Part shown: piece by piece, positions 13,627 through 41,175 of the stretch
How positions within the stretch are numbered: the stretch's first letter is position 1
Layout of the letters: each line of letters starts with the position of its first letter
Assembly: GCA_025055115.1 (NCBI GenBank)
Contig: JANWYJ010000064.1
Coordinates: 1 to 64,000 of the forward strand
From: Gemmata sp.
Lineage (GTDB): Bacteria > Planctomycetota > Planctomycetia > Gemmatales > Gemmataceae
Direction of reading: 5' to 3'
Length of the DNA stretch: 64,000 nt
Program-made: the position numbers and the translations under genes
The notes under the pieces: model-generated
Seen by the model: only the letters and a program-made list of their open reading frames with translations
Database searches by the model: none
What the model was told of the DNA's origin: nothing

Positions 13627-13660
13627 AACTGAGACGCAACACCAACTGAGACGCAACACC
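13627..13660. repeat. 17-bp perfect tandem repeat aactgagacgcaacacc
   Basis: 13627-13643/13644-13660. Confidence 0.95.
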
Positions 13661-15867: not shown

Positions 15868-16040
15868 GTAAAATCCCCTACTGTGGCCGACCGAGCGTCG
15901 CCACACCCCAGTGCCTGACGTTCCGCCGATTCGCACCCCCAGCCACCACGGCGATGGGGCATGGGCCAAGAAAAAAAACATGCTGGGATCAACTTGGAGT
16001 CGATTGTCCCCGGTACTGTCCGTTTTAAGCACCAGAAGCC

Positions 16041-17258: not shown

Positions 17259-17327
17259 CGAGGGCCTAAGTAGCACTCTCAGCACCCAGCGAGGGCCTAA
17301 GTAGCACCCTGAGCACCCAGCGAGGGC
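17239..17327 (+). repeat. 31-bp repeat, ~3 copies, copying the 3' end of gspF
   Basis: gtagcaccctgagcac(c/t)agcgagggcctaa-type units starting 17239, 17270, 17301. Confidence 0.95.
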
Positions 17328-17437
17328 TTCAGAACCACCACAACCGGGGGGGGCAACGCCGTGATCGCGGGGGGCCTCCGCAATAGGCCAGACACTCACG
17401 CAGCGCTGTCTGGGAACGTAGCGCAGTCGAAACTCTC

Positions 17438-17464
17438 ATAACCAGTTAAGCCGCTACTGGTTAT
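17438..17464. promoter_or_regulatory. 9-bp inverted repeat ATAACCAGT-n9-ACTGGTTAT upstream of gspG
   Basis: Perfect arms in the gspF-gspG spacer; terminator, attenuator or operator unresolved. Confidence 0.4.
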
Positions 17465-17531
17465 ACTAGAGAATAACGACTATCGGCACCCTGTTGGAAC
17501 CCGCGCTAGATCGTGGGAGGAGACTGACCCT

Positions 17532-17981
17532 ATGTTACTGACCACCTCTCGTCGTTCTTCCACACGACGCTCAGCCTTCACCCTGCTGGAAGTGCTGGTT
17601 GTCGTGGCCATTTTGGTGATTCTCGCCACGGTCGCCACGGTCGCGACCACCCGCTACATTGAAGACGCCAAGAAAACCAAAGCGCAGCTGGGCTGCAAAG
17701 CCATTGCCGAAGCGATTCAAAACTACACCAACAACCCGGCCAACACACTCAATCAACCGCCGGAAACGCTGCAAGACCTGCTCACCCCAGCCTTTGGCGG
17801 CACCGCCTTCCTTCGCAACGGTCAAGAAGACCTCATCGACCCCTGGGGCAAACAATACCGCATGGAACCGATGATCCAAGGCGATGGCAGCACAATTATT
17901 GTTGTGTACACGTACTCCAACGATAACCCGCCAGTGCCGATCAGCCAATTCGGTATTGGCCCCAACTCGAAGGTGAACTGA
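17532..17981 (+). CDS. gspG: Major pseudopilin
   Basis: Prepilin motif RSAFTLLEVLVVVAILVILATVATVA, then DPWGKQYRM. Confidence 0.9.
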   Translation: MLLTTSRRSSTRRSAFTLLEVLVVVAILVILATVATVATTRYIEDAKKTKAQLGCKAIAEAIQNYTNNPANTLNQPPETLQDLLTPAFGGTAFLRNGQEDLIDPWGKQYRMEPMIQGDGSTIIVVYTYSNDNPPVPISQFGIGPNSKVN

Positions 17982-18004
17982 TCCTGTGGCGTGGTGGGCT
18001 TCCC

Positions 18005-18029
18005 ACGGGCACCGCGTGGCCGTGCCCGT
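18005..18029. other. Hairpin ACGGGCAC-n9-GTGCCCGT between gspG and gspH
   Basis: 8-bp perfect inverted repeat 23 bp before the gspH ATG. Confidence 0.35.
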
Positions 18030-18051
18030 TCCTCGCGGTCGAGAATCGACT

Positions 18052-18615
18052 ATGCATACTCCCTGGTCTCGACGCGGCTACACGCTCTTTGAGCTGATTG
18101 TTATTATCGCGCTACTCATTATTCTTGCCGTTGTCCTCATCCCCAGTCTGGCCACGTTTCGTGGGGATAGCCGGCCCCGTGGAGCGCTGGATAGCATCCG
18201 TGCCGAATTGGCCATCGCTCGTGCCCGGGCCAAAGACGAAGGTCGCCCCTATCGCGTCGCCATCAGCGAAGACGGCCGCCGTATTCGCCGTGCCCCTGAT
18301 ACGGCCGATTTTGCCCAGGTGGCCGCCCTCGATCAAGCTTCGGGATTGGCCCCGGCCGTTGAGTATCCGTTTGAAGCGGTCATCGTCAGCGTGGTGGCCG
18401 AACAAGATGGCGAACCGGCGCTGGTCGATGCGGGCTGGGTCACCATCGCCACCGTCTTGCCCGATGGCGGTTGTCGCGAACTGACGACCCTGCTGGCTCT
18501 CCGGGACATCGACAGCGACCTGACCCTCTACGCCCGCATCCGCGGAATCACCGCCTCGGTGCGCGTCGTTCCCAACCCGACGACCAATACCACTCTCGGC
18601 GGAGGTGTCCGATGA
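18052..18615 (+). CDS. gspH: Minor pseudopilin H
   Basis: RRGYTLFELIVIIALLIILAVVLIP prepilin motif; start at MHTPWSRRG. Confidence 0.75.
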   Translation: MHTPWSRRGYTLFELIVIIALLIILAVVLIPSLATFRGDSRPRGALDSIRAELAIARARAKDEGRPYRVAISEDGRRIRRAPDTADFAQVAALDQASGLAPAVEYPFEAVIVSVVAEQDGEPALVDAGWVTIATVLPDGGCRELTTLLALRDIDSDLTLYARIRGITASVRVVPNPTTNTTLGGGVR

Positions 18616-19055
18616 GGCGCCGCCGCACTCACTCATCCCGCCGGGGTTTGTCGCTTCTGGAAATTCTCTTGTCGATGGCCATTCTCGTGCTGGCCATGGC
18701 CGCGATTTGGCGGCTGGTCGACATGGGCACCGACAGTGCCACCGAGGCTCGGGCGTACATTCGCGGCACCCGCTTGGCCGAATCGAAGATGGCGGAGGTT
18801 GAAGCGGGTGTCATCGGCATTGAAGGGGCCGAAGGGCAATTTTCCGATGACGACGCCGCATGGTCCTTCACGGTCACATCGCAACCGGCCGGCCCCCCCA
18901 ACCTTTACCAGGTCACGGTACGCGTCTCCCGCGACTTGCAGGGGCGGAGCATCGAAGTATCGCTGTCGCAGATGATTTTCGATCCGGCCTTAATCGGCTC
19001 AACGGCCCAAGCGGAACGTCCCGCCACGGATACGGGTGGAGGAACATCCCCATGA
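18612..19055 (+). CDS. gspI: Minor pseudopilin I
   Basis: SRRGLSLLEILLSMAILVLAMAAIWRLV; ATGA overlap with gspH. Confidence 0.75.
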   Translation: MRRRRTHSSRRGLSLLEILLSMAILVLAMAAIWRLVDMGTDSATEARAYIRGTRLAESKMAEVEAGVIGIEGAEGQFSDDDAAWSFTVTSQPAGPPNLYQVTVRVSRDLQGRSIEVSLSQMIFDPALIGSTAQAERPATDTGGGTSP

Positions 19056-20191
19056 TGCTGCGTACTGCGTTGGTTCACCGGTTCCGCCACCGCGGCTTCA
19101 CCTTGCTGGAAATTCTTCTGGCCTCGGTATTAGCGGTCATGGTCCTGGCGGCGGTGTACATGCTGTTGCAAGTGACGGTGCAGCAAACCCAAATCAGCCG
19201 CGATGCCATCGAGGTCGAAGACCTGACGCGGGGTGTGGTGAACCGCCTGGCCATCGACCTGAGCGGTACACTGACCCCCCTGCCCCCCAAATCCGGCGGT
19301 AACTCGGCGGGCAGCAGCGGAACGTCGTCGGCATCGTCCGGTTCCACCGGTAGCACCACCACCGCGACTTCAGGTTCTGGCAGCAGCACTTCAGGAACAA
19401 CGTCGGGGAGTAGCACGGGGAGTGCGTCCAGTTCCGGCACCAGCACCGGGAGTAGTTCGGAAACCACCTCCTCCGACCCGAGCGCCACCGACAATTCCAC
19501 CGCTTTGGCGGCGGACTATTTGTTCCAAGGTGGGGTGGTCGGCGGACCGACGAAACTGGCGATTTTCACGGGCAAAGTTCCCGAAGCTCTCGGTCGCTAT
19601 GGGGAACCCAGTCCCCAAGTGCGGCCGGATCAACGCCAGATCATCTACTGGCTGGGCAGCGATGGTCGTGGATTGTATCGCCGCGAACGGCCGTGGGTCA
19701 CCGCCGATGGGGTCCGCAACGCCATCGAAGACGATGAGACGGCCAGCGATGCTGCTCTGTTGGCCGAGGAAGTCGTCGGTTTGATGTTGGAATACTTCGA
19801 CGGCACCAGTTGGATGAGCGAATGGGACGGCACTCAACCAGGCCCGGATGGGGCCACACCGATCGGCCCTCCACGGGCCATTCGGATCACCCTGATGCTA
19901 GAAATTCCCCTCAGCCGCGGTGGCGAACCGCTGCTGAAAACGGTCTCCCATGTCATCGCTGTGCGCTCAGCGCCCGGTCCGTATACACCCGAGTTTTTGG
20001 TGCCCACCACCGACGGTGGCGACAACCCGACCACAGACCCTTCGGCCGGCAGCGGTGGTTCGTCGTCACCGTCCACACCTTCGGCCGGCAGCGGTGGGGG
20101 TAGCCCTGGGGGAGGAAGTATGGGCAGCGGTACCAGCGGCGGCACCCGCGGCAATACGGGGGGGACAGCCCCGAAAGGAGGTGGACGATGA
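19052..20191 (+). CDS. gspJ: Minor pseudopilin J with Ser/Gly/Thr-rich insertion
   Basis: HRGFTLLEILLASVLAVMVLAAVYML; ATGA overlaps with gspI and gspK; low-complexity segment encoded ~19297-19497. Confidence 0.75.
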   Translation: MMLRTALVHRFRHRGFTLLEILLASVLAVMVLAAVYMLLQVTVQQTQISRDAIEVEDLTRGVVNRLAIDLSGTLTPLPPKSGGNSAGSSGTSSASSGSTGSTTTATSGSGSSTSGTTSGSSTGSASSSGTSTGSSSETTSSDPSATDNSTALAADYLFQGGVVGGPTKLAIFTGKVPEALGRYGEPSPQVRPDQRQIIYWLGSDGRGLYRRERPWVTADGVRNAIEDDETASDAALLAEEVVGLMLEYFDGTSWMSEWDGTQPGPDGATPIGPPRAIRITLMLEIPLSRGGEPLLKTVSHVIAVRSAPGPYTPEFLVPTTDGGDNPTTDPSAGSGGSSSPSTPSAGSGGGSPGGGSMGSGTSGGTRGNTGGTAPKGGGR

Positions 20192-21744
20192 AACGCCCTC
20201 GGACCACCGCCTCGGCCCGCGACGGCTACGTCATCTTTGCGGTGCTGATTGTGATTGTTGTGTTGTCGTTGGTGGCCTATCGCTACACCGATGCGATGTC
20301 GAGCGAATATCAGGCGGCGGTGCGGGCCAATGATGCTACCCAGGCCCGTTTAGCGGCCATTTCGGGCCTTTACTACGCGGCCGCGGTGCTGTCTGATCGT
20401 CTGACGTTCTACAACGAACTGGGCGGTAACCCCTACGACAATCCCGACATTTTCGAACTCTTCGAAATTCCCGTCCCCGGTCCCAACGGCACTACCCGCA
20501 TGGCGTATTTCTCCATCCAATGCGCCACGGTCAATGACGAAGGCAGTTCGGTGCAACGCTACGGCGTAATTGATGAAGGCGGCAAAATCAACATCAACAG
20601 CATGATCGCTCTTGATCCGAAGGGGGAACGCCTCCGCGAAGCCCTCATGAAGCTGCCCAACATGACCGCCGCGATCGCCGATGCCATTGTGGATTGGGTC
20701 GATGCTGACGACGAACCGCGGGCCGAAGGGGCCGAGTCTTCGTATTACTTGTCGTTGCCCAACCCATACAAGGCGAAAAATGGCCCGCTCAATTCGCTCG
20801 ATGAATTGCTCTTAGTCCAAGGTGTGACCCCCGAGCTGCTCTATGGTGGCGATCGCAACCGCAATGGGCTGATGGATGAGGGTGAAGAAAATGCCAGCCG
20901 GGGTTGGTCCGACTATCTGACCGTCTACGGCCGCGAAATCAATGTGGATATCAACGGGAATCCGCGCATTTATCTCAACGGCGATAATCTGCAAACGCTC
21001 TATAGCGACTTGGAAGCGGCGGTGGGGGCGGAGTTGGCCACGTATGTGGTCGCCCACAAACTGTTCGGTTCGCAACCAGTCTCGACCAATACTTCCGGCA
21101 AGGTCACAACTGTCGCGGTCGGTCCGGAGCAGCTGTACCAGGTGGTGCAAGAACGGATCGCGGCCACCGGCAGTAGTGGCCGGCGGATTCGCTCGGTCGC
21201 GGAACTGATCGGTACGCAGATTCGCCTGCCGCGGCCGCCGGGCTACCCCAAAGATGCCCCCGACCCGGTCGTTTATTCGCCCCTCAATACCCCGGAAGGG
21301 CTTGCGGAACTCTTTCCGCGGTTACTCGATGCCACCACGGTCCGGCAAGCTATCGAAATGACGCCGCGGATCAACATCAATAGCGCACCGATGGAAGTGT
21401 TGATGGCTATTCCGGGCATCAGTGACCTCGAAGTGGCCGGGATTCTGGCGGGGCGGCCCAACCAAGACCCCACCAGCCCTGCCACCACCACCGGGGCTTG
21501 GCTGGTGACCAGTGGGCTGATGGACCCTTCCCGCTTCCGTCGCCTGGAACGCTACATCACGGGGACCTCGATGGTCTATCGTGTGCAAGCGATCGGTTTT
21601 CTCGAGAAAGGCGGCCCGGTGGCCCGCTTTGAAGCCATCCTGGATACCAATCAGGGCGCGCCGCGGTTCTTACAGATCCGCGACCTGTCCGATTTGGACC
21701 ATCCCCGCGGCTTCCAGCCGCCGATTGTGCCGAATAGGCGTTAG
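20188..21744 (+). CDS. gspK: Minor pseudopilin K-like protein
   Basis: DGYVIFAVLIVIVVLSLVAYRY; INSMIALDPKG, ADAIVDWVDADDEPR, ININSAPMEVLMAIPGIS (GspK/HhH-like segments). Confidence 0.85.
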   Translation: MKRPRTTASARDGYVIFAVLIVIVVLSLVAYRYTDAMSSEYQAAVRANDATQARLAAISGLYYAAAVLSDRLTFYNELGGNPYDNPDIFELFEIPVPGPNGTTRMAYFSIQCATVNDEGSSVQRYGVIDEGGKININSMIALDPKGERLREALMKLPNMTAAIADAIVDWVDADDEPRAEGAESSYYLSLPNPYKAKNGPLNSLDELLLVQGVTPELLYGGDRNRNGLMDEGEENASRGWSDYLTVYGREINVDINGNPRIYLNGDNLQTLYSDLEAAVGAELATYVVAHKLFGSQPVSTNTSGKVTTVAVGPEQLYQVVQERIAATGSSGRRIRSVAELIGTQIRLPRPPGYPKDAPDPVVYSPLNTPEGLAELFPRLLDATTVRQAIEMTPRININSAPMEVLMAIPGISDLEVAGILAGRPNQDPTSPATTTGAWLVTSGLMDPSRFRRLERYITGTSMVYRVQAIGFLEKGGPVARFEAILDTNQGAPRFLQIRDLSDLDHPRGFQPPIVPNRR

Positions 21745-21853: not shown

Positions 21854-23491
21854 GTGGCCAACTTCATCGCGATTGATCTGGATTCTCAAGGCCTTTATGT
21901 GGTGGCCGGCGATGCTCGCCGCAGTGGTTTGACAATCACCCACGCCTTCCCATGGTCGGCCGATACCTCCGCCGATGGCGAGGCCCCGCCGACACTGACG
22001 GTGGAAACCGCCAACGCCATCGGCGAGAAACTCCGCGACAAACTCCGCGCAGCGAACATCCCGCCGGCGCCGGTGTTTGTCTCCGTCGGCCGGGATCGCG
22101 TCATTCTCAAGGAAGTGAAATACCCGCCGGTGGACCCCGTCGAGGAGCCGGCCGTCGTTCGCTTCCAAGCGATGAAAGAGATGACCGAAGCCCCCGACGA
22201 CATCGTTCTCGACTATGCCCCGCTGGGCGAAAGCGATGGCGAGCGGCTGGCGATGGTTGTGGTGATGCGCAAAGACCTCTTCACAGCCATCCAAGCCCTC
22301 GCCCAGAAATTGGGGCAGAAGCTCGCCGGGGTCACCCCGCGGCCGTATGCCGTGGCGGCTGTGCTGAATCGGGCCTTGGCCGCGGGTCTGGTCCCCCCAC
22401 CAACGGAAGCGACAGAAGCCGTCGCCGCGCTGACCCTCACCCCCGCGGGGGGGGAATTCACCATCGTTCGCGGCGGCGAAGTCATCTTCACCCTGGCAAT
22501 TCCCGCGCCGGTGGTGGCCAGTGAAACTATGCTCATTTCGCAACTGCGGCGGAATTTAGCGGTGTATGCCGGCCAGCATCCCGGCCATCCGATTCAGGCG
22601 GTGTATTTGGCCGATGGCGGTGAGGTGTGGGCTGAGCGGCTGCGCGCAGCCCTGAGTGTGCCGGTCCACGCCTTCGATCCGCTTATGGCAGCGCTGCCGC
22701 AGATCCCCGCGGCGCTGCGGGGCCGTTTCGCCGGCGCAGCGGGCTTACTGGCGGCCCGTGCCGCCGACCGGCTGCCGATCAACTTCGCTTCGCCCCGGAA
22801 ACCAGAACCCCCCCGCGACCCAGCAAAAAAACGGCTCGTCCTGGCCGCGGGGCTAGCTCTGCTGCTGTGCGGAGCCATTCTCGCCGCCGGACGCTACTAC
22901 GTCCACGGGGTACAATCCCAGCTCACCGGCTTGTATGCCCAACGCGACGAACTCAAAAGCCAGATTACGCAAACCGGCCCCGATGCCATCCGCCTCAAAG
23001 CCATTGAAGCGTGGACCAAACGCGAGGTCAATTGGCTCGACGAACTCTATGAGCTGGCCGACCGCATGCCCCCCGATGATTCCGTACGCCTCAACATGCT
23101 GACGGCCACCGCGATCCAGGCCGACAAAACCGGCAAACAAGAGGCCCAAGCCAATGTCGAAATCCGCTTGGCGGCCACCAATAACACCGCGGCGACGCGG
23201 CTCTCCGATGCCTTCGTTCGCGCCAATCCCACAGCCAACAAATATTACGCCGGAACTAACATCAACTTCACCGGACCGTTGCCCGCCACCGGTGGGACCA
23301 AACATACCTACGGGGCAACAATCCGCCTCAAGCTCAATCGCCGCGAACCGGATGAATACACCCGCGTCAACCGCTTCACCCCCGCCAAAACCACCAGCGG
23401 CGCAACAGGCCTTGGTACTACTGCCGAGCCAGAAACTACCGTCGCTGTGGCACCGGCCCCCGCAGTGGCACCGCCCCCCCAGGAGAAGTAA
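21854..23491 (+). CDS. GspL/PilM-PilN-like protein
   Basis: GTG start; PilM-like ATPase N-terminal half, TM helix LVLAAGLALLLCGAILAAG, PilN-like C-terminal region; position in operon. Confidence 0.7.
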   Translation: MANFIAIDLDSQGLYVVAGDARRSGLTITHAFPWSADTSADGEAPPTLTVETANAIGEKLRDKLRAANIPPAPVFVSVGRDRVILKEVKYPPVDPVEEPAVVRFQAMKEMTEAPDDIVLDYAPLGESDGERLAMVVVMRKDLFTAIQALAQKLGQKLAGVTPRPYAVAAVLNRALAAGLVPPPTEATEAVAALTLTPAGGEFTIVRGGEVIFTLAIPAPVVASETMLISQLRRNLAVYAGQHPGHPIQAVYLADGGEVWAERLRAALSVPVHAFDPLMAALPQIPAALRGRFAGAAGLLAARAADRLPINFASPRKPEPPRDPAKKRLVLAAGLALLLCGAILAAGRYYVHGVQSQLTGLYAQRDELKSQITQTGPDAIRLKAIEAWTKREVNWLDELYELADRMPPDDSVRLNMLTATAIQADKTGKQEAQANVEIRLAATNNTAATRLSDAFVRANPTANKYYAGTNINFTGPLPATGGTKHTYGATIRLKLNRREPDEYTRVNRFTPAKTTSGATGLGTTAEPETTVAVAPAPAVAPPPQEK

Positions 23492-23556
23492 AACCCGCGT
23501 TGGCGGCAACGCAACCCTCGGTTCCCCGACCCAGACACCCTGACCACTTGCAAGCG

Positions 23557-25257
23557 ATGACAACGATGAGTTCCCGCGAACAACTGATGGCCTATCTGCT
23601 GCTGGGCGTGATTGTGTTAACGGTGCTGGGCGCCGGAGGGTACTTCTTCATTCTTCGACCCTTGGCCAATGTCGAAGCAGCGGAAGCCGCCCTGCGCGAG
23701 GACATTGAGAAACTCGAAAAAGACCTCGTCGCCCAGCGCACCATCCGCAAACAGATGGAGATTGCCCGCACCCGCAGTTTGCCGGCGGACCTGACATTAG
23801 CCGAACACGAATATACCATCGCGCTGAAACGCCTGGCCGATAACGCGGGTATCACCGACTACAGCACGACCAAAAAATCGGTGGATAATTCCTCCCGGGC
23901 CGTGCCCCAGATTGCCAAAGGCCGCCCCGCCTACACCAAAATTGCCATCGATCTGAACTTCAAGAAAACCAACATGAAAGCCCTTGCGGAGTTTCTCCGC
24001 GGCTACTACAACCTGGGCCTCTACCACCAGATCACAGCTCTTTCCATCAAGAAAGACGAAGACCCCAGCGGCAAAAATACAGCGCGGCGCAACAATCTGA
24101 ACGTGGCGCTGACCACCGAAGCCATCTGCATCGACGGCGCTGAGAACCGCCGCACGCTCGTCCAAATCCCGGCTGCCTTTGCGGCCCTGGGTGGGGGCGG
24201 GCTGTATCGCAGCCTGCTTCTGACACCCAGTGCCGGCCGCTTAATCGTGCCCCCGGTGCCCACCCCCACACTCTCCCCCGTCGGCCGCGATTATGCCTTC
24301 ATTGTGCAGAAAGACCCCTTCAACGGACCGTATCAAGAAACACCCCCACCCCCGAAAAAACCCCTGGAAATTGTTCGCATCGACGACAAGAAAGTCCGCA
24401 CCGACGACAAACCCACAACCGTGCGCGTCGTTTTACGCGGCGACTCCGCCAACGGTGCCACCTTCACGGCCATCGCCAACGACGGCAACCTCTTCCCCGA
24501 AGGGGCACTGAAAGTGGATACCAAAGAATACACCCTCGAACTGCCCACCACATCCGCCTCCAGTGGCAGTACCACGATCACGGTCATTGCCACCTCCGCC
24601 GATGGGAAGGAAACCGCCAAAACGACTTTCAAAGTGACCGTCGAAGAGCCACCGCCCCCACCGGAGCCGAAATTGGGACCGGATATTTCCGAGGTCATCA
24701 TTCTCATCGGTTCGACTCCACGCTCCGACGGCACGGCCTGGGCCCGCATCCGCGACAACTACAACCGCCTGCGCTACGAAATCGAAGCCACCAGCAAAGG
24801 GGTAACGGTCATCCGCGAAGAGAAACTCGCCGGCACGCTGCCGTGGAAAAAAGACCTCGACTACGACCACCCCGCGGGGATGCTCGTCATTGCCGATAAA
24901 GAAACAGCGACCAAACGCACCTTCAAAGTGCTGGCGATCACCGCCGAGGGACTGATTTTGGCCGATTTGCGACCCAGTGGCACCACGGAAACCAATCCAA
25001 CCCGGCCACCGGGCGGTCGCGGCGGGCCAGGCTTCGGCGGCAAAGGCGGCTGGCCGCCCAAACAAGGCAAGGCTGATCCGCTGGCCGCCCTCGGCGGCAA
25101 CCGCCTCACCGCGGTACCCAAACCCAAATATTACCGATGGGACGTTGGCACTTCCTTGGCCAAATTGGTCGAACTCCCAGAAGCCGAAGCCCAGAAAATT
25201 CTCCAAGCTGTGAAACAAAATGGCCCCGTGTATGAACTGACGGCCAATAACGACTGA
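23557..25257 (+). CDS. GspM/PilO-like protein with extended C-terminal domains
   Basis: N-terminal TM LMAYLLLGVIVLTVLGAGGYFFIL followed by coiled coil; operon position; start chosen at MTTMSSREQ. Confidence 0.6.
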   Translation: MTTMSSREQLMAYLLLGVIVLTVLGAGGYFFILRPLANVEAAEAALREDIEKLEKDLVAQRTIRKQMEIARTRSLPADLTLAEHEYTIALKRLADNAGITDYSTTKKSVDNSSRAVPQIAKGRPAYTKIAIDLNFKKTNMKALAEFLRGYYNLGLYHQITALSIKKDEDPSGKNTARRNNLNVALTTEAICIDGAENRRTLVQIPAAFAALGGGGLYRSLLLTPSAGRLIVPPVPTPTLSPVGRDYAFIVQKDPFNGPYQETPPPPKKPLEIVRIDDKKVRTDDKPTTVRVVLRGDSANGATFTAIANDGNLFPEGALKVDTKEYTLELPTTSASSGSTTITVIATSADGKETAKTTFKVTVEEPPPPPEPKLGPDISEVIILIGSTPRSDGTAWARIRDNYNRLRYEIEATSKGVTVIREEKLAGTLPWKKDLDYDHPAGMLVIADKETATKRTFKVLAITAEGLILADLRPSGTTETNPTRPPGGRGGPGFGGKGGWPPKQGKADPLAALGGNRLTAVPKPKYYRWDVGTSLAKLVELPEAEAQKILQAVKQNGPVYELTANND

Positions 25258-25282
25258 ACACCGCAAACGACTGAACACCGCA
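25249..25282 (+). repeat. 17-bp perfect tandem repeat spanning the stop of the GspM-like gene
   Basis: aacgactgaacaccgca x2. Confidence 0.95.
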
Positions 25283-25655
25283 GGCTCCCGCCTGATGCCA
25301 CCGAGTCCAATAGCCAAAGACACGGGCTTGGTCAAAAGCTGCGATCCCCGCTGCTGGCAGCGCCGACGCGACCAAAGCCACAGTTCGACCGTGCCGGTGA
25401 ACTAACCGTTCGACCGTGCGGTTAAACTACAAGGCCCCGAGGGGGGGGACACAGCGGCGACAAACATCCGCATGGGCCACGCTCAACATGGGCGACGTTC
25501 AACCTGATCTCGGGGAAACCTGAAAACGTTCTCGGGGAAAATCCGATTGGGGCGCGGCGGCGACAAACAGCGCGGATGCGCGGCGGTTTGGGGAAATTGC
25601 GCGTTGGGGAAATTGCGCGGCCGGGGTTGCCATGGCGGCCCGCAGCAGACCTCCT

Positions 25656-25729
25656 AGGTCCTAGTCGGTGGTAGTAGTAGGTGGAAGACCTGCCAGGTCC
25701 TAGTCGGTGGTAGTAGTAGGTGGAAGACC
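25656..25729. repeat. 35-bp perfect direct repeat, offset 39 bp
   Basis: aggtcctagtcggtggtagtagtaggtggaagacc x2. Confidence 0.95.
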
Positions 25730-25730
25730 C

Positions 25731-25929
25731 GTGTCGAGAACATACGCTCCACAAGGGAGTGGCCACCTCTCACCATCGTGATGAGCCTTCCATGCTTCGT
25801 GGCGTCGGGAAAATACGTTCCACAAGCGCGTGGCCACGGCGTGCCACGGGAGATCTTCAGCCAGGCCGATTGGAGGTCAAGGGTGGATTTTCGGATTTTC
25901 TCCCGGAGGGTGGATTTTCGGATTTTCTC
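25731..25929. repeat. Two further repeat pairs upstream of gspD
   Basis: ~36-bp imperfect pair 25731-25766/25802-25837 (offset 71); agggtggattttcggattttctc at 25880-25902/25907-25929. Confidence 0.9.
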
Positions 25930-26169
25930 ATCGTGATTTCACCATGTAATGGCCGGGCAAGGATGGTAAACTGGGAATAGATTAAAAGTTGTTGGGAGTG
26001 TAGCAGTTTTTCTGGTTTTGCCCGAAAAAGTGCCGATATTAGGTTTGTTACGGGAGAACGCGTTCTGCAGATGGGTCGGCGCGCGGGCAAGGAGCACCGT
26101 GAGCGCGACCTCTACGGCCGCTGCCGCGAACTGACCGTCCAGGTGCGTTGTCGCAGTTAGGGGGATGTC

Positions 26170-29100
26170 ATGGGTCAACGTCGCGATACCCGCTCAGCGT
26201 CGGGGACATTCTGGAAACTCTGGCGTCTGCGCCAATGGCTGCCGGGGGCTTTGGCTGTGGCGGCCGGGCTGAGTGGCCCGGTCGACTTCGCCGCCGCCCA
26301 AACCAGCTCGGATACTCCACCGACCATGCCGACCCCGACCAAACCGGGGACCGTGGTACCGGTCAAACCCGCCAACCCCAGCACCCCCACGTCCCCCGCG
26401 ACCACCGAAAAGACCGTCGTCGTCCATTTCGACAAAGCCCCCTGGGACGACGTTCTGGAATGGTATGCCAAAGAAACCGGCCTGACGCTCATCACCACCG
26501 TCAAGCCCACCGGCAGCCTCACCCTCAAACCGGGCAAAGACAAGCAATACACCATGGGGCAAGTCACCGACTTGCTCAACGAAGCCCTGACGCAACAAAA
26601 GTTCATCCTCATCCGCCGGCACATGACCTTCTTCATCCATCCGGCGGATGAAAAGATCGACCCCACTCTGCTGCCACGCATCGAACTGGCGGAGTTGGCG
26701 TCGCGAGGCAAAACGGAAATCGTGCAAGTCATCATCCCCCTCGAAGGGATGGTCGTGGCCGATGTCCAGGAAGAGCTGAAGAAACTGCTGACACCCTTTG
26801 GTACGCTGGTGCCACTGGAAACGCCCAACTTCCTGCTCATTCAGGATACGGTGGGCAACATCAACCGCATTCGCGACACCCTCGAACGTGCCAAAGGCAT
26901 TGGTGGCCGCTCCGATACGCTCGACCATGTCTGCAAATGGCGGCGGGCGCAGGAAATCGCCAATATCCTCAAAGACGTTCTCACCGATAAAGACACCCAA
27001 GCCAACATTACCGGCACAAACATGATGATGACGCCGTCGTTTGGCGGCGATCCGCGCTTCGGCTTTGGGGGCTGGGGCGACCGCGGCGGCTTTGCGGGCT
27101 GGGGCGATCGGGGCAGCTGGGGCGATCGCGGCAGCTCCGATCGCGGCTCAAGCAACCGTCCGCCGACGCCCGCCACCAACTCCCGGATGAAAACGGTGCA
27201 AATCGCGGTCGATTCCCGCCGCAATGCGGTGATCGTGACCGCCCCGCAAGATAAGATTGTGGTGGCTCGGCAAATCATCGAAACGCAAGACAAACAAATC
27301 AATCCCACGGATAAACCGGTCGTTCCGCAAGAACCGGTGGCGCAAACCTACAACGTCCCGGCCGGCTCAGCCCTCGAAATGGCCAAGGCCATCACGCAGA
27401 AGTATCCGTGGATCAGTTGCGTCGGCCTGCCACAGCAGAACCAAATCCTCGTCTTCGCCGGCAAAGACGACCAGGACATCGTCCGCTCCATGCTCGGCTC
27501 GGATACCGGGGGCGTGACTTCCGAGACGGTCTTCATCCCGCTCAATCTCCTCGACCCCACCGAAACCGCGGCCACCATCGTGAAACTCATGCCCAGCTCC
27601 ACCGCGGGCGGACCGAGCGTCGAAGCCGTCAAAAGCGGTAATTACGGCCTCATGGTCAAAGGCACCTCGGCCCACATCGACGACATCAAGAAAATCCTTA
27701 AGGGTCTGGGCGAACCGGTCGATGCGGGTGGCAGTACCCCCTCCAACCTGCCCAATACGCGGATTCTGACACTGGGTGAGAATACCAATGCCCAACTGGT
27801 GGCCGAACTGTTGGGCCGAGCTATGGAAGGCATGGGCAAGCGCGTCATCATCAACGATCCGCTGGCCCCGCCGCGGCGGCAACCCAACCTACCCCCGGTG
27901 ACACCCCCACCCCAACCGCAACCACAGCCCAACCCGGCACCGAACTTTCCACAGCTTCAGCCGCCCAAACTGCCGGCCCCGGCCAAACCAAAATATCCCG
28001 ATGTCCAGCACCTGCGGCCCGCACTGCCCGGACGCGATCCAGTGCAACCGGTCCATGCCCAGATTGTCGATCCCGAGAAAACCGACGGCAAACCGATCAC
28101 CATCACCATTTCCGGAGGCAAACTGATCATCCAAAGCGATGACACCAAAGCCCTGGATATGCTGGCGCAGCTGTACCGCATCATCACCACCGACGGTACC
28201 AAGATCGACAAAAGTGTGATGCGGGTCATTCCGCTGAAGTACATCGCCGCGGAAGATGCCGCCCGGGAAATCACCGAAATCTTCAACGGGCCCCAGCAGC
28301 AACAAGGGGGCGGTCGTGGTGGCCCCGGGGGGGGACGAGTGCCCGGCGGTCTTTTTGGCGGCAATCCCCTGGGGGCCTTACTCGGAGGCATCACCGGCGG
28401 CAACGAAGGCGCCGCGACACCCCAACCCAAGCGCGTCCGGGTCGTGGCCGAAAAAAGCAGCAACTCGCTGATCATCGTCGAAGCCAGCCCCCTCGATGTC
28501 ATGCTCATTGAGAAACTGTTGGCGGGCGTCATCGATGGTGGCCAGAACGATTCCGCCGCGGTCATGAAAACCTTCGTCATTCCACTGAAAAATGCCGATG
28601 CCAGCGAAATGGCGTCGATTGTTCGCAATGTCTACAGTAGCGCGATGACCAGTAGCGGCGGCAACAATCAGATCGGCCAGTTGCCGTTCCTCTTCGGCGG
28701 TCTGACCGGCGGTGGCGGCGGTGGTCAGCCCTCCCGGCCGCCGGCCCTATCCCTGGCCGTTGATGACCGTAGCAATAGCCTCATCCTCTTCTGTGCCGAA
28801 ACCCTCTACAACGACATCCACACGCTCGTGACGCAACTCGACAACGCCACCGTCAGCACCACCGAAGTGGTCGAGTTGGTGAAACTCAAGGGTGTGGACC
28901 CGAACCTGATGCAGCAAGCGATCAATGCTCTGCAAGGCCGCGACACCCGGGGTATCGCCGGTGGCGGTTTTGGCCGTACCGGTGGCTTTGGGGGGCTGGG
29001 TGGTACGGGTGGATTTGGAGGATTTGGTGGTCCGGGTGGCTTGGGCGGGTTTGGTGGCACCGGTGGCTTGGGCGGCTTGGGCGGTGGTGGCTTCGGCGGC

Positions 29101-32100
29101 TTGGGCGGTGGTGGCTTCGGTGGCACCCGCGGCGGCTTCGGCATCACCACCGGTGGCTTGGGCGGCATGGGTGGGGCCCGCGGCGGAGGAACAACCGGAG
29201 GTCGAGGCGGTGGAGGAACGCGCGGCGGGGGCCGAGTCAGTCTCGGCCCGACGGAGGGCCCCTTAAATTTTGACTACCGGGGCAAGGATGCCCCTTCGGT
29301 GGCCCGCGAATTCCAACTCTACGATCCCGAAACCGATGAACCGGACCTCGGCTACAATCGCCCGGCCCACGCTCGGCCCCGCAACGAGGTCCTCCAGATC
29401 GGCGGCTTCCAAGCGCAACCGCCTGGGACACCCATTCCGGGCGAACCCGTCTGGCCCAATATGAAGCCGCCCACGGCACCACGCGGTTATACAGCCCGCG
29501 AAGGCTCGGGGGTCACCACCTTCACCAGCCCCGCGCCCCGCGGCGTCATTTCGGCGATTCCCGTGCAGGGGTTGGATGTTCTCGTCGTTCGCACGCAAGA
29601 TGCGAAAGACCTCGAAATCGTCCTTCAACTCATTGACCTTTTGGCCGAAGCCTCGAAGGGCACCCAACCGCGGGTCGAAGTCGTCCACCTCAACCACGGC
29701 GACTGCAACTATGTGGCCGATACGCTCAACTCGATCTTCGCTCGCTTACCCCTCGATCAGCAAGGCAACTATCTGCCGACTGGCAGCCGTCCGGCGGTGG
29801 GTGGTATTGGGGGTTTGGGGGGGGGCGCGGCCGCCGCGGGCTTGAACCCCACCCAGAATGTGTATGCTTTGGCGTTACCGCGCTTCAACGCCATTCTCAT
29901 CGCCGCTCCCGAGGCGATCTTCAACGATGTTATCCGCGAAATGCGGCGGATTCTCGATCAGCCGAATTCCGCTCCGTTCAAAGCGTTCTATCTGAAAAAA
30001 GCGTCGGCCCAGATTGTGGCATCCCAGCTGCAAAACTTCTGGAACACCCGCTATCCGGGCGATTCTCTGGCGCAGAACCAGTTCCGCGTTACGTTTGATG
30101 TCGCCAACAACATCGTCTTTGTGCAAGGTAGCCCCAGCGATTTGGCCGATGTCGAAGAGTTGATCAAGTATATGGATTCGCCGGGGAATAAGGCCGTCAA
30201 CGAAGTGCGCATCTTCTATCTGCGCAACGCGATTGCGGATGAACTGGGGCAGATTCTCAGTAATGCGATTTCGTCCAACGTCGTCAACCCGATTGCCCAA
30301 TCGCAGCTGACCGGTCCGGTGGCCCAGCAGGCGGGCGGGGCTGCGTTCTTCACGCAAGGAACGGGTGTGCAACTGGGTGGTGCGGGTGGTCAGTTGGGTG
30401 GGGGGCAGCTCGGGCAGCTCGGTGGTCAGTTGGGCGGGCAGCTCGGTGGCCAATTGGGGGGTGGGCAGCTCGGCGGGCAGCTCGGGCAGCAAGCGGGCTT
30501 AGGGCAAATCGCCGTTCGCCAGATCAACGCCATCATCCCGACCATTGGCACCGGCACCGGGGGGGGCTTGGTGACGAAAACCAAAGCCATCAGTTTCTTA
30601 TCCCCCAAAGACGGTAAAACCTACGAAACCGGCTATTTGGAAGATGTGAACATTGTTCCCAGTGCGCGGGTCAATGCCCTCATCGTCTCTGCGCCCAAGG
30701 AAACGATGACACTCATTCAAATGCTCATCGAGAGCCTCGATACGGTGGCCGCAGCGCGATCGTATGTCAACGTCTTCCGCCTGCCGCGGGGGATGGATGC
30801 GACTCTCACCGGCAACCTGATTGCTCAGTTGTTCACGGGGCAAGGCCGGCAGCAAACGGGCCTGGCCCAGCAACCGGGTGGTTTGCAGGCGCAACAGCAA
30901 TTCATCACCCGGCCTCTGATCACCCTCACCGGCAACCCCGCCGACGGTGCGTCGCTGATCGACTTGCGCATCTCGGTGGATGACCGCACCAATAGCCTCA
31001 TTGTCGCCGGTTCGCTCAACGATCTGGAAGCGATCCGGGCCATCATTGAGCGGCTCGAGGCTGGGGCGGCCGATGCCCAAAGCGGGCGTCTCAGCGCGGT
31101 GGTCAAACTCCGCAACGCGGCGGCCGCGGATGTGCAAAACGCCATCAACACCTTCTTCCAGAACCAGTTGACGGCCTACCAGAACGCGGGCTTCAACACC
31201 GCCTACCAGCAACTGTTGCGGCAAGTGGTGGTGGTGGCCGAACCCATCAGCAACACCGTATTGATCCAGGCCACACCGCAATATTTCGATGAGATTCGCC
31301 AGATCATCGAGCGGCTCGACAGCCAACCGCCTCAGGTGCTGATTCAGGTCACGATTGCCGAAGTCCAACTGAACAACGCCCGCGAACTGGGGGTGGAAGC
31401 GGGTCTGCAGTCCCCGGTGTTCTTCAACCGGGCACCGACGGGTACCGGTTTGGGCTTCAACTTCAACACGCCGGCCACCAGCCTCACTCTGCCTCCCAAC
31501 GTTGTCAGCGAAAGCGTGGTGGGCTTCCAAGGTTTGGGGAATTTGGGAGTCGGTCGTACCTCGGCCACGCAGGGCTTCAACGGCTTCGTCTTTTCGGCCT
31601 CGAGCAACACCTTCAGCCTGTTGTTGCGGGCTTTGGAATCGCAAGGCCGGGTCGATGTCTTGAGCCGTCCGCAAATTCAAGTGGCCGATGGGCAGATCGG
31701 CTTCATGAACGTCGGTCAGAACTTCCCGATAGCGACCGGCTCAACGATCGCTGCCGGTGGTTTGGCCCAACAGGGTGTCGATTATGTCCCGGTCGGTGTG
31801 ACTCTCCAGGTGGTTCCGCGAGTGAACCCGGATGGCAAAGTGCTGTTGCGGGTGGCACCGCGGGTCTCCAGCGTGCAGCCAGGCCAGATCAACCTGGGTG
31901 GCGGAGTGTTGGCCCCAGTGTTCAATGAACAGGTGGTGGAAACCACGGTCCTTGCTTCCGATGGTGAAACGATCATTCTGGGCGGCTTGATCACCCGACA
32001 AGAAGCCCGGCAAGAGAACGGTATCCCCTACTTCAAGGACATTCCTTATGTCGGGGCCTTGTTCCGCTTCCGCACGCACACCATCCAACGGCGGGAATTG

Positions 32101-33156
32101 CTCATCATCCTGACGCCACACATCATCCGCAGTGAGTACGACCAAGCCCGGCTGTTGGCCGAAGAAGCCGGTCCGACGTCTCACTGCTGGCCGGAAGTCC
32201 TCAACGCCCACAAACATGGTGGGGAAATCATCCTGCCGGCAACGCAAGGGGCGCGCCCCGTGCGCGTCGATCCGCAGAGTGTGCCGCCAACGACCTTCGG
32301 CGATCCCATCCCGCTCAATGGGGCCGCGCCGTTACCTGCGCCGGGGTCCATGCCACCAGCCACTTCAACGGGGCCGATCTCCGCAGCGCCGCCCGTGGCC
32401 GCACCGCCAGTAGCCACGGCATTGCCCGTCGCACAGCCTCTGGCTCAACCTGGGGTGCAACCGGCTAATCCACCCGCAACGGTCGGCGCGCCGGGGGTGC
32501 AACCGCCAGCGGTGCCCGGCGCAGGCATGCCCGGAGCGATGATGCCCAGCCCGACCCCGCCGACTGCTCCCGGCTCGCTTTCCCACAGCCCGATTCCCAT
32601 GAATAGTGGGCATCCCACGTTCACACCGCCCTCATTCGCGCCATCCACGCCGGTCGCGGCCACGCCCAGCGGGCAGGTTCAACCCATAGCGGCAGGACCG
32701 ACACCCGCCGGGCACTCCGTTCCGCCCGCTGCCGTTCCGGCGGTGAACACCACGTCGCCGATGGTGCAACCCGCTGCCGTACCCGGGGCCTTGCCGCCGG
32801 CCATGACCGCCCCCGTTGTTCCCTCCGCGGCTACAATGCCGCCCAGTGGGGGCGCGCCGGCTCCGGTGCCCACACCCACGCCCCCGTCAACGCCATTGTC
32901 GGGCCTGCCGACGTCGGGTATGCCAACGCCGGGTATGCCAACGCTGGGCCTGCCGACGTCGGGTATGCCAACGCCGGGTATGCCGACCACCGGGGGCGCA
33001 GCCGGTAGTCCCCATACCTTACGGCACGGCTATGTCATGACACGGGCAACAGCGTCTACCCCAACACCACCCGGCAACGGGCAGGAAGCCCGACCGGCAG
33101 ACCACAAACCATTCCTCAAAGCCAAGGAGGGCGATTCATGGACGTTCGGCCGCTGA
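26170..33156 (+). CDS. gspD: Giant type II secretion secretin (2328 aa) with many N-domain repeats
   Basis: C-terminal secretin core (VLSRPQIQVADGQIGFMNVGQNFPI, VGVTLQVVPRVNPDGKVLLRVAPRVSS, GGLITRQEARQENGIPYFKDIPYVGALFRF, RRELLIILTPHIIRS) preceded by many secretin_N-like modules. Confidence 0.92.
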   Translation: MGQRRDTRSASGTFWKLWRLRQWLPGALAVAAGLSGPVDFAAAQTSSDTPPTMPTPTKPGTVVPVKPANPSTPTSPATTEKTVVVHFDKAPWDDVLEWYAKETGLTLITTVKPTGSLTLKPGKDKQYTMGQVTDLLNEALTQQKFILIRRHMTFFIHPADEKIDPTLLPRIELAELASRGKTEIVQVIIPLEGMVVADVQEELKKLLTPFGTLVPLETPNFLLIQDTVGNINRIRDTLERAKGIGGRSDTLDHVCKWRRAQEIANILKDVLTDKDTQANITGTNMMMTPSFGGDPRFGFGGWGDRGGFAGWGDRGSWGDRGSSDRGSSNRPPTPATNSRMKTVQIAVDSRRNAVIVTAPQDKIVVARQIIETQDKQINPTDKPVVPQEPVAQTYNVPAGSALEMAKAITQKYPWISCVGLPQQNQILVFAGKDDQDIVRSMLGSDTGGVTSETVFIPLNLLDPTETAATIVKLMPSSTAGGPSVEAVKSGNYGLMVKGTSAHIDDIKKILKGLGEPVDAGGSTPSNLPNTRILTLGENTNAQLVAELLGRAMEGMGKRVIINDPLAPPRRQPNLPPVTPPPQPQPQPNPAPNFPQLQPPKLPAPAKPKYPDVQHLRPALPGRDPVQPVHAQIVDPEKTDGKPITITISGGKLIIQSDDTKALDMLAQLYRIITTDGTKIDKSVMRVIPLKYIAAEDAAREITEIFNGPQQQQGGGRGGPGGGRVPGGLFGGNPLGALLGGITGGNEGAATPQPKRVRVVAEKSSNSLIIVEASPLDVMLIEKLLAGVIDGGQNDSAAVMKTFVIPLKNADASEMASIVRNVYSSAMTSSGGNNQIGQLPFLFGGLTGGGGGGQPSRPPALSLAVDDRSNSLILFCAETLYNDIHTLVTQLDNATVSTTEVVELVKLKGVDPNLMQQAINALQGRDTRGIAGGGFGRTGGFGGLGGTGGFGGFGGPGGLGGFGGTGGLGGLGGGGFGGLGGGGFGGTRGGFGITTGGLGGMGGARGGGTTGGRGGGGTRGGGRVSLGPTEGPLNFDYRGKDAPSVAREFQLYDPETDEPDLGYNRPAHARPRNEVLQIGGFQAQPPGTPIPGEPVWPNMKPPTAPRGYTAREGSGVTTFTSPAPRGVISAIPVQGLDVLVVRTQDAKDLEIVLQLIDLLAEASKGTQPRVEVVHLNHGDCNYVADTLNSIFARLPLDQQGNYLPTGSRPAVGGIGGLGGGAAAAGLNPTQNVYALALPRFNAILIAAPEAIFNDVIREMRRILDQPNSAPFKAFYLKKASAQIVASQLQNFWNTRYPGDSLAQNQFRVTFDVANNIVFVQGSPSDLADVEELIKYMDSPGNKAVNEVRIFYLRNAIADELGQILSNAISSNVVNPIAQSQLTGPVAQQAGGAAFFTQGTGVQLGGAGGQLGGGQLGQLGGQLGGQLGGQLGGGQLGGQLGQQAGLGQIAVRQINAIIPTIGTGTGGGLVTKTKAISFLSPKDGKTYETGYLEDVNIVPSARVNALIVSAPKETMTLIQMLIESLDTVAAARSYVNVFRLPRGMDATLTGNLIAQLFTGQGRQQTGLAQQPGGLQAQQQFITRPLITLTGNPADGASLIDLRISVDDRTNSLIVAGSLNDLEAIRAIIERLEAGAADAQSGRLSAVVKLRNAAAADVQNAINTFFQNQLTAYQNAGFNTAYQQLLRQVVVVAEPISNTVLIQATPQYFDEIRQIIERLDSQPPQVLIQVTIAEVQLNNARELGVEAGLQSPVFFNRAPTGTGLGFNFNTPATSLTLPPNVVSESVVGFQGLGNLGVGRTSATQGFNGFVFSASSNTFSLLLRALESQGRVDVLSRPQIQVADGQIGFMNVGQNFPIATGSTIAAGGLAQQGVDYVPVGVTLQVVPRVNPDGKVLLRVAPRVSSVQPGQINLGGGVLAPVFNEQVVETTVLASDGETIILGGLITRQEARQENGIPYFKDIPYVGALFRFRTHTIQRRELLIILTPHIIRSEYDQARLLAEEAGPTSHCWPEVLNAHKHGGEIILPATQGARPVRVDPQSVPPTTFGDPIPLNGAAPLPAPGSMPPATSTGPISAAPPVAAPPVATALPVAQPLAQPGVQPANPPATVGAPGVQPPAVPGAGMPGAMMPSPTPPTAPGSLSHSPIPMNSGHPTFTPPSFAPSTPVAATPSGQVQPIAAGPTPAGHSVPPAAVPAVNTTSPMVQPAAVPGALPPAMTAPVVPSAATMPPSGGAPAPVPTPTPPSTPLSGLPTSGMPTPGMPTLGLPTSGMPTPGMPTTGGAAGSPHTLRHGYVMTRATASTPTPPGNGQEARPADHKPFLKAKEGDSWTFGR
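28960..29240 (+). repeat. Gly/Phe/Leu-rich low-complexity coding tract in gspD
   Basis: Encodes GGFGGLGGTGGFGGFGGPGGLGGFGGTGG... Confidence 0.9.
30362..30500 (+). repeat. GGQLGGQL-type coding tract in gspD
   Basis: Encodes GGAGGQLGGGQLGQLGGQLGGQLGGQLGGGQLGGQLGQ. Confidence 0.9.
32901..32984 (+). repeat. 45-bp offset in-frame direct repeat in secretin C-terminal tail
   Basis: gggcctgccgacgtcgggtatgccaacgccgggtatgcc at 32901-32939 and 32946-32984 (GLPTSGMPTPGMP). Confidence 0.9.
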
Positions 33157-34283
33157 GTGCTTGGCTCGCTGCCGGGGTGTTGATCCTTGGCAGCGGCTGT
33201 ACGACACTCTCAACCACTGCCCAGCAAAAGCCTGACATCACACAGCCGGGAGTCTTGCCACCGCCGCAAGAATTGGCCCAACAGAATGCCGCCGCGGCCA
33301 GCGGCGTGGTGCCCGCGGGGGGGAGCACCGCCGCCACCCCAGTACCCGCGGTAGCCTCGGGTTTGCCCAAGATGCCGAACCTGGCGAACATCGCCACACA
33401 ATTGGGCTTCAAGACACAACCCAGCGAACTGGCTCTCGGCTGGCGGAACCGTGTCGCCTATTTGCCCGATCCAGCACGCCAAGGTGTGATGAGTCCGGGC
33501 CTGGTGGGGCAGATGTTTCTCTTCGGCTACAACGGTTCCAAGCTCGAATTTGTCGAAGCGGATGGCATTCTGACGGTCGATGTTATCGACAAAACGCCCC
33601 GGCCGCCGGGGGCTACCCCCCTCCGGCCTGAACGGTGGCAATTCAACACCGAGATGCTCAAACGCCTGCAAACGGTGGATGAAACCTTCGGCCGCAGCTA
33701 TGTCTTGTTCTTGCCCTGGCCCGCGTATCGGCCCGACGTGACCCGGGTAGAAATCAGCGCCCGTTTCGACCCCAGCAGTGGCCATACACTCTACTCGCCG
33801 CCATCGATTCTGACCTTGGAAAATACGCCCCACAACACACCGGTGTGGGGTGACATGCAGAAGTCGAGCCGGCCATTGAACATGGCGAACAAACCACCCC
33901 TGATTCAGCCCATCAGCAGTCACCCCCTGCCCAATACCTTCCAACCCACAGGAACTCCGGGGGCTGCACCAGGAACTCCGGGGGCTGCACCAGGATCACC
34001 GGGGATGCACATTATTTCACCACCGGCAGGGGCGATGCCATCGGCATCTCCTCCTTGGCCCGGAGCCTTGTCGAGTCCGCCGGTGGTGTCGCCGGCCCCA
34101 GTGTCCACGTCCCCCGCGGCTCCGGCCACGGGGACAGCGCCGGCGGCACTCCCACCCCCCCCGTTATCTTCATCGACGGCCACGCCGATGTCGATGTCGG
34201 TAGTTCCACCCATGCCCAGCGCTTCGCTGGCTCCTGCGCCACCCCCGGGACTACCGCCGATTGCCATCAGTGTGAACCGCTGA
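33138..34283 (+). CDS. Probable lipoprotein of unknown function, overlapping gspD end
   Basis: Signal with lipobox-like LILGSGC; Pro/Ala-rich C-terminal tail; overlaps gspD by 19 nt. Confidence 0.7.
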   Translation: MDVRPLSAWLAAGVLILGSGCTTLSTTAQQKPDITQPGVLPPPQELAQQNAAAASGVVPAGGSTAATPVPAVASGLPKMPNLANIATQLGFKTQPSELALGWRNRVAYLPDPARQGVMSPGLVGQMFLFGYNGSKLEFVEADGILTVDVIDKTPRPPGATPLRPERWQFNTEMLKRLQTVDETFGRSYVLFLPWPAYRPDVTRVEISARFDPSSGHTLYSPPSILTLENTPHNTPVWGDMQKSSRPLNMANKPPLIQPISSHPLPNTFQPTGTPGAAPGTPGAAPGSPGMHIISPPAGAMPSASPPWPGALSSPPVVSPAPVSTSPAAPATGTAPAALPPPPLSSSTATPMSMSVVPPMPSASLAPAPPPGLPPIAISVNR

Positions 34284-40216: not shown

Positions 40217-40364
40217 AGTCAGTCCGTGCAATACTCCACTCATGCTGCAGTTGTTGTACCGAATTCAACCGTGAATCCCAAGGGACGCCAACCGTACCCA
40301 CACCAATACTCAGCCCCCGATGAGAGCTTGCCCCGTGAATAGCCTTGGGGTCTGCGGTTGGCCC

Positions 40365-40475
40365 GTTTCATCCCCCTCGCTTCTGGCATGCGGAACAACG
40401 GCAACTATCAACCCCTCAAAGGGGGGCATTAGTCGTTGTTGTTTCATCCCCCTCACTATTGTCATGGGGAACAAC
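40365..40475. repeat. 35-bp imperfect direct repeat pair, offset 76 bp
   Basis: gtttcatccccctc...ggaacaac at 40365-40399 and 40441-40475. Confidence 0.85.
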
Positions 40476-40566
40476 AGGCCTTGTAATCTGGATAGTGGCC
40501 CGTGGCGACAGCCGCGGCCAAGCTAGCGCCGCCAGTCTGTGGTACAATGGCAGACCGAGGGTGAAA

Positions 40567-41175
40567 ATGGTGTGGCTTTCAACGACCCAACGGAGAACAT
40601 CGATGGGGTCTCGGGTGGTGGGAGTGATGCTGGCATGCTGGGCGATGTCGATAACTCAGCCACTGGCAGCGCAAAAGCCCCAGCGGCTGGGTTCTACCCC
40701 CGTTCCCACAGCGGAAGAATTGGCCGAACAACGCCGCTTTATAGCGGGGGTGGTCGATCCGCGGAATACACTCGATCTGATCGTCGGCCGTCCGCGAGTG
40801 ATTCTCTTGCACGTCACGCCCACGCGCACTCTTCTGGCCGATCCCCAAGTCGCGGAGTTATCGTTTTTGGAACCCAACGGCACACAGATGCTGATCCTGG
40901 GGCGTCGTGTCGGCACGACAGTGCTGTACTTGTGGTTCCCGGACCCGGAGAAGAAAGGCCAAGAAAAGATTATCGGCTACCTGGTGCGGGTACTTCCTGA
41001 TCCAGAAGCCAAGGCTCGCCGTGAGGCTGCGGCCGCCGCCCTGGCCGCAGAGGTGAACCGCGCTTTCCCCAACAGTCGTGTGCGTCTGACCCCGGTGGGG
41101 ATGACGACGCTTCTGAATGGGCAGGCTCACGATGTGGTGGATGCTATGAAAATCCTGCGCGTACTGCGGCGTTGA
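40567..41175 (+). CDS. Secreted protein resembling the N-terminal (pilus assembly) domain of CpaC/RcpA secretins, stand-alone
   Basis: LIVGRPRVILLHVTPTRTLLADPQVAELSFLEPNGTQMLILGRRVGTTVLYLWFPDPE; N-terminal signal. Confidence 0.65.
   Translation: MVWLSTTQRRTSMGSRVVGVMLACWAMSITQPLAAQKPQRLGSTPVPTAEELAEQRRFIAGVVDPRNTLDLIVGRPRVILLHVTPTRTLLADPQVAELSFLEPNGTQMLILGRRVGTTVLYLWFPDPEKKGQEKIIGYLVRVLPDPEAKARREAAAAALAAEVNRAFPNSRVRLTPVGMTTLLNGQAHDVVDAMKILRVLRR

Follow-up and report, generated by a model that had tools for sequence, protein, structure and literature searches.

A giant GspD-type secretin with thirteen N-type domains in Gemmata, and its longer relatives

The window, by which we mean the whole 64,000-nucleotide stretch of Gemmata sp. 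DNA analysed here, carries a gspD-type gene (P0001; 26170..33156, + strand) that reads as one open frame of 2328 amino acids with no internal stops. From its N-terminus the protein is laid out as an N0-like domain, thirteen N-type domains, a secretin core and a proline-rich tail. Two of the families named by the sequence-only reading, an earlier model-made interpretation of the same letters, are found by a profile scan: Pfam places Secretin_N in ten stretches (271 bits) and Secretin (PF00263) at residues 1821–1987 (149.8 bits against a cut-off of 27.5). The top NCBIfam family is TIGR02517 (gspD), with 437.2 bits against a cut-off of 351.35, a whole-protein score that is summed over repeated domains and is thus inflated and weaker than it looks; the models for the type IV pilus PilQ (TIGR02515, 232.5 vs 284.35) and the type III SctC (TIGR02516, 141.2 vs 238.45) stay under their cut-offs. 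A phmmer comparison with PulD (6hcg) gives an E value of 3e-43, and together with the orthologues described below these matches confirm the gene as a real and intact secretin. Antisense frames of up to 360 aa within the gene were rejected as shadow frames of high-G+C DNA.

The gene lies in a T2SS-like operon, all on the + strand, with the order gspE-F-G-H-I-J-K, a pilM/L-like gene, an M-like gene, gspD and a lipoprotein gene. The GspE-type ATPase (14095..15867; Pfam T2SSE, 449 bits) scores 617 bits with TIGR02533, just under the cut-off of 630, and the GspF-type inner-membrane platform protein (16041..17258; Pfam T2SSF, 189 bits) scores 361 bits with TIGR02120, under the cut-off of 424. The next four genes encode divergent pseudopilins, namely a GspG-like protein (17532..17981) with an N_methyl and a weak T2SSG match, a GspH-like one (17986..18615) identified in Pfam and NCBIfam searches, and GspI-like (18471..19055) and GspJ-like (18860..20191) ones whose true starts are probably near 18612 and 19052 respectively. 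They are followed by a GspK-like minor pseudopilin (20188..21744; Pfam T2SSK_1st, 70 bits; NF037980), a PilM/GspL-like platform protein (21854..23491; 39 bits with NF045709, the Amuc_1101 family of PilM-like proteins, far under cut-off) and a membrane protein without a family match that was assigned to the GspM position by its place and its N-terminal membrane segment (23500..25257); a gene at this position precedes gspD in most relatives. The lipoprotein gene (33138..34283; lipobox LGSGC, without a Pfam match) starts within the end of gspD, and a scan of lipobox positions alone places such a frame directly 3' of gspD in many, not all, family members, so that by its sequence it is a possible candidate for the pilotin. 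A PF11356 search of the window's genome, which a very divergent GspC would escape, found no GspC, with E. coli and Caulobacter controls positive; the same genome encodes three further secretins. In the 0.9-kb gap 5' of gspD (25258..26169) several short direct repeats lie in tandem, as 39-bp, 27-bp-spaced, 25-bp and 16-bp pairs; the stretch may be regulatory or in decay. A few kb downstream, 40345..41175 encodes a protein of 276 aa that has no secretin core but carries T2SS-T3SS_pil_N, the domain found N-terminally in Tad/Cpa-type secretins.

Residue-level parsing gives fourteen potential rings where four are usual, namely an N0-like domain (residues ~82–175; 26413..26694) and thirteen N-type domains between residues 181 and 1718, all encoded on the + strand. 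Parsing, our own profile and AlphaFold2 each support N1 (residues 181–243; 26710..26898), N2 (248–375, with a 67-aa insert; 26911..27294), N3 (389–446; 27334..27507), N4 (450–516; 27517..27717), N6 (681–789, with a Gly-rich insert; 28210..28536), N7 (797–892; 28558..28845), N8 (897–1160; 28858..29649), N9 (1166–1265; 29665..29964), N10 (1268–1338; 29971..30183), N11 (1344–1525, with a 122-aa Gly/Gln-rich insert; 30199..30744) and N12 (1531–1631; 30760..31062), the last of which also aligns to the N2 region of solved GspDs. The same three lines of evidence, with Pfam and the alignment to solved GspDs added, support N13 (1639–1718; 31084..31323), which adjoins the core at the position of N3 in GspD. 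The weakest assignment is N5 (529–675, with an 84-aa Pro-rich insert; 27754..28194), which is known from two half-matches to our profile and from predicted strands and helices. The core (residues ~1726–1990; 31345..32139), comprising the outer-membrane barrel and gate, is identified by Pfam Secretin, phmmer and Foldseek, and it is followed by a Pro/Ala-rich tail of about 338 aa (32140..33153).

N8 is split by a low-complexity, Gly/Phe-rich insert of 201 aa with GGFGG and GLGG motifs (28945-29547; residues 926-1126). In L075, an uncultured Gemmata sp. that is the closest named relative, the two halves of the domain are 100% identical to those of the window protein and the insert is 89% identical. 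All Gemmatales orthologues examined have a Gly-rich stretch at this place (94–172 aa, 36–55% Gly, often with FG pairs), the sequence of which is not conserved.

The profile used for counting was built from the thirteen parsed domains and searched back on the same protein, where it recovers the full domain or its two halves at all thirteen positions; as this step is circular, independent support was sought in per-domain Pfam searches, AlphaFold2, Foldseek and control proteins. When most, not all, domains were submitted alone to Pfam, N2 (36 bits), N6 (42 bits), N7 (42 bits) and N11 (39 bits) scored above the curated cut-off, N1 (E 6e-5) and N3 (E 0.002) fell below it, N4 was marginal (E 0.11 only), and N0, N5 and N8 had no match. 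The assignment of these last three is based on motif, profile, predicted secondary structure and conservation; N0 has in addition a predicted alpha-beta-alpha-beta-beta order and a Foldseek match to XcpQ N0N1N2. The AlphaFold2 models are of low confidence, with a mean pLDDT of 54.6 from four aligned sequences for residues 75–895 and of 61.1 from 46 aligned sequences for residues 893–1995, and they show the beta-alpha-(beta)beta-alpha order at 13/13 N positions, with strands split or missing at N2 and N5. In Foldseek the first model matches the XcpQ N0-N1-N2 crystal structures (E 9e-8), and the matches of the second are PulD and further GspDs (E 2e-29).

Counted in the same way, ordinary GspDs from a gammaproteobacterial MAG (L149), from Aeromonas (L151) and from a caulobacterial MAG (L152) have three N-domains each, as expected for N1–N3. 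The window secretin has far more N-domains than is typical, as the sequence-only reading had claimed, and instead of the usual number alone, which that reading had named as a finding that would overturn it, thirteen N-type domains follow the N0-like one. Its figure of about eleven repeats was right in being far above the usual number and slightly low, there being thirteen N-type domains plus the N0-like one. A chance or low-complexity origin of the repeats was also considered and is ruled out by the agreement of Pfam, the predicted structure and the GspD controls.

A search covered 59 relatives, among them 43 genomes of the same order; at least 25 of these 43 have a frame of 1,890–2,350 aa at the corresponding gene, which in several of the others is cut at contig ends. 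Relative to L075, dN/dS is 0.076 overall, 0–0.06 in the N-domains (0.009 in the N0-like one), 0.03 in the core and 0.30 in the fast-evolving tail, which is 60% identical. The N-domains are under strong purifying selection and the tail is relaxed, and the array is a maintained coding feature. That the giant frame is an artefact of assembly, frameshift or fusion, the last two of which the earlier reading had raised against itself, might be suspected from the 100-contig state of the window's assembly, but it has next to no probability and we regard it as refuted by the equal-sized frames that the order shows in 25 or more relatives, by purifying selection along the whole gene and by a longer relative of 4,623 aa that sits in a one-contig genome. 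One orthologue (L038 in G016; 11324-17614) has a 2096-aa frame whose start corresponds to N6, N0–N5 being apparently missing, with a frame break or a misread start possible.

The C-terminal part of fifteen relatives (query A1) was used to scan public genomes, which yielded 80 named loci, and genome surveys added more; N-domains were counted with the profile used for the window protein. The counts are 5–9 in Pirellulales and Planctomycetales (only about 5–7 in the Planctopirus group), 10–13 in Gemmatales, 27–30 in L049 and L050 (3,240–3,269 aa), which come from a further family of the class, and 37–53 in Phycisphaerae and several Verrucomicrobia-labelled MAGs (3,575–4,987 aa, with one frame of 5,073 aa whose start is probably misplaced), some Verrucomicrobia having 42. 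Pfam itself finds 25 Secretin_N stretches in L050 and, in the 4,623-aa secretin of the one-contig genome, which belongs to the same phylum, 41 stretches (1,246 bits). An N0-like motif precedes the array in those relatives of 3,500–5,000 aa whose N-terminus is available, and the order H-I-J-K-(L)-M-D-lipoprotein is recognisable around a 50-domain relative. The M-like protein is about 330 aa long in species with 30–50 domains vs 585 aa here. Giants look rare in the phylum of the 42-domain Verrucomicrobia genome, where among the 145 listed in the A1 survey a frame of more than 1,150 aa occurs in the query genome only. Four giant loci (L110, L121, L123 and L128) come from MAGs labelled Akkermansia muciniphila or Proteobacteria and fall in the tree with Verrucomicrobia-labelled MAGs; their taxon labels are probably wrong.

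In a tree of the cores, made by a quick method and with some deep branches unsupported, the family of about 30 domains nests within low-count secretins and the forms with about 50 domains fall in separate groups, which indicates that array expansion happened more than once. Between two Phycisphaerae-type proteins 47/47 aligned domains pair in order, with 50% identity against a random-domain background of 23%, and the Gemmataceae domains likewise pair in order between the window protein and L047. L172 (1430-16393, - strand) has 53 N-domains, among which domains 26, 28, 30 and 32, and likewise 27, 29 and 31, are near copies of one another (87–91% identity), the product of a recent duplication of a two-domain unit. 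A two-domain period was sought in the giants and is clear in L172 only, being weak in L050 (at offset 2) and absent from the Phycisphaerae arrays, and a recent duplication burst in the window protein is ruled out, no pair of domains within it reaching E 1e-3. The ordered pairing and the copies in L172 indicate that the arrays are lengthened by tandem duplication of blocks and that their register is kept thereafter.

From this analysis we propose, with a probability of roughly 0.62, that the protein is a T2SS-type secretin whose additional N-domains would form further rings of a stack and so make the channel through the periplasm longer. By homology, the channel would be built of some 12 to 15 copies, whose C-terminal cores form a gated pore in the outer membrane. 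The thirteen N-type and the N0-like domains would then be stacked as successive rings, N0 being at the inner-membrane end, in a tube that should be several times longer than that of an ordinary GspD. As GspC was not detected, N0 probably docks on a different partner, which could be the PilM/L-like or the M-like platform protein. In the T2SS a pseudopilus is established to push folded substrates, and here it would presumably push them up the tube. The number of rings would evolve as one or more N-domains are duplicated in tandem, would then be kept by selection, and would amount to a lineage-specific setting of channel length. At 2.5–4 nm per ring, our own estimate for fourteen rings is a periplasmic tube of about 35–56 nm, against the ~20 nm by which PulD with bound PulC HR domains protrudes into the periplasm (PMC6882859). 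With thirteen N-type domains where GspD has three, and with no GspC found in the genome, the protein is not an ordinary GspD, yet very probably it works like one.

An elongated channel appears the natural reading because the extra N-domains of Thermus PilQ form extra rings and because the N0-like domain stays far N-terminal whatever the length of the array. A register kept position by position between distant species is, moreover, what one would expect of rings that each have particular neighbours. Against stacking we count several observations: the AlphaFold2 confidence is low, inserts of up to 201 aa need room in or around the rings, GspC as the usual partner of N0 was not found in the genome, and the inner-membrane platform proteins are not longer where the rings are more numerous. 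Fifty rings of 2.5–4 nm would by the same estimate measure 125–200 nm, which is beyond any ordinary periplasm, so that linear stacking of the whole array is doubtful in the extreme cases. What the extra length serves is a further step, and that it spans a wide planctomycete periplasm, as the sequence-only reading had suggested, would fit the variably and sometimes greatly enlarged periplasm of planctomycetes (PMC5394234). Caution on this point comes from the nearly tenfold range of about 5 to 53 domains among planctomycetes and the 42 of some Verrucomicrobia, and from cryo-tomograms of Planctopirus, in which crateriform outer-membrane complexes occur at sites where little space separates the inner membrane from the wall.

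We consider it rather unlikely that rings are formed only near the core, by N12, N13 and perhaps some further domains, and that the others are flexible beads, or are folded back, serving as tethers to peptidoglycan, to substrates or to the inner-membrane platform. Even ordinary secretins have flexible N0–N2 domains that resolve poorly (PMC10550240, PMC5745081), several domains of the window protein are broken up by long disordered inserts, and an array of 40–53 domains looks too long to run straight across the periplasm; yet the domain order and identity kept position by position and the strong purifying selection on every N-domain are less expected of a loose tether, and successive domains are often fewer than ten residues apart. 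We also give little credence to the proposal of a neutral ratchet, by which tandem duplications of N-domains were tolerated because an added pair of rings does little harm, the length not being tuned to the width of the periplasm. The large jumps between lineages (about 6, 13, 30 and 50) and the recent run of two-domain duplications in L172 would suit it, but neutral arrays should drift, and number and register have long been stable within Gemmatales and within Phycisphaerae, although their domains are only about 50% identical.

A further reading, compatible with stacked rings, is that the machine is the planctomycete crateriform structure, and that the giant secretin serves to extrude fibres, to take up macromolecules or to anchor membranes and not for classical protein secretion. 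Crateriform structures are described as unique to planctomycetes, join the outer and cytoplasmic membranes, are of a composition called "enigmatic", and in Planctopirus and Gemmata carry pili-like fibres of 12 nm (PMC5394234, in which the words secretin and GspD are absent), and the operon is of the type IV filament superfamily, with pseudopilins and a PilM-like protein. This identification is nevertheless improbable in our judgement, given the three further secretins in the genome, the report of such structures in Planctopirus, whose group has only about 5–7 N-domains, and the 12-nm fibre, which is wide for the lumen of a secretin. In its most extended form, which we find possible and somewhat doubtful, the stacked-ring interpretation would make these proteins a secretin family of the PVC bacteria whose arrays expanded independently to about 13, 30 and 50 domains and form tubes that, at about 35 to 150 nm or more, exceed all known ones; the inherited number of rings would act as a ruler for the envelope gap, and the family might then be the core of the crateriform structures.

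Few outer-membrane channels are as large as secretins, whose textbook structures have two to six periplasmic rings. In the searchable literature the six rings of Thermus PilQ are called exceptional, and relatives of the window protein with about 30 to 53 domains may build the longest channels of the secretin kind described. We found no description of giant or elongated secretins, or of planctomycete secretin architecture, in the searchable open literature (most subscription papers lay outside the search), and as far as that literature shows it is the number of modules that is new, and not the kind of secretin, of GspD or of N-domain. With 13 to 53 modules in a long-kept register it becomes testable whether the reach of a trans-envelope machine is set by its number of rings, and the giant family allows a test of the identity of the protein that forms the crateriform structures and spans the enlarged planctomycete periplasm. 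The natural series of 6, 13, 30 and 50 domains also lends itself to the study of how repeat proteins grow by tandem duplication.

Among known systems the window secretin is close to GspD (PulD, XcpQ and ETEC GspD), with which it shares the order of N0-like domain, N-domains and core, a best match to TIGR02517 and to GspD chains in the PDB, and an operon with GspE, F and G–K. It differs in having thirteen N-domains after N0 where GspD has three, in its long Gly-rich inserts and Pro-rich tail of about 340 aa, and in a genome in which no GspC was detected. With the PilQ of Thermus thermophilus it shares lengthening by extra N-domains; the six N-domains of that protein form six stacked rings, N0–N5, in a 350 Å complex, described as among the largest such systems, whose length was taken as a means to bridge a wide periplasm (PMC5745081). 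PilQ is a type IV pilus protein of 757 aa with six rings, in contrast to the 14 domains of the window secretin and the up to about 54 of its relatives. The long TPR-type secretins (C59; L067 and L063–L066) have a secretin core and 1,370–1,780 aa but belong to a different family, with a long N-terminal part that looks helical (TPR-like by eye) and no Secretin_N match. One of them, L067 (6774-10898, - strand; 1,374 aa), occurs in the same genome as the window, is without an N-domain array and is conserved in other planctomycete families. Close counterparts are also the planctomycete and PVC giants (L167–L183, L049 and L050), which differ in their 27–53 N-domains vs 13 and in the compact domains of their long arrays, mostly without long Gly-rich inserts, and which have the same architecture, the same type of operon where examined, and cores that group with that of the window protein with support.
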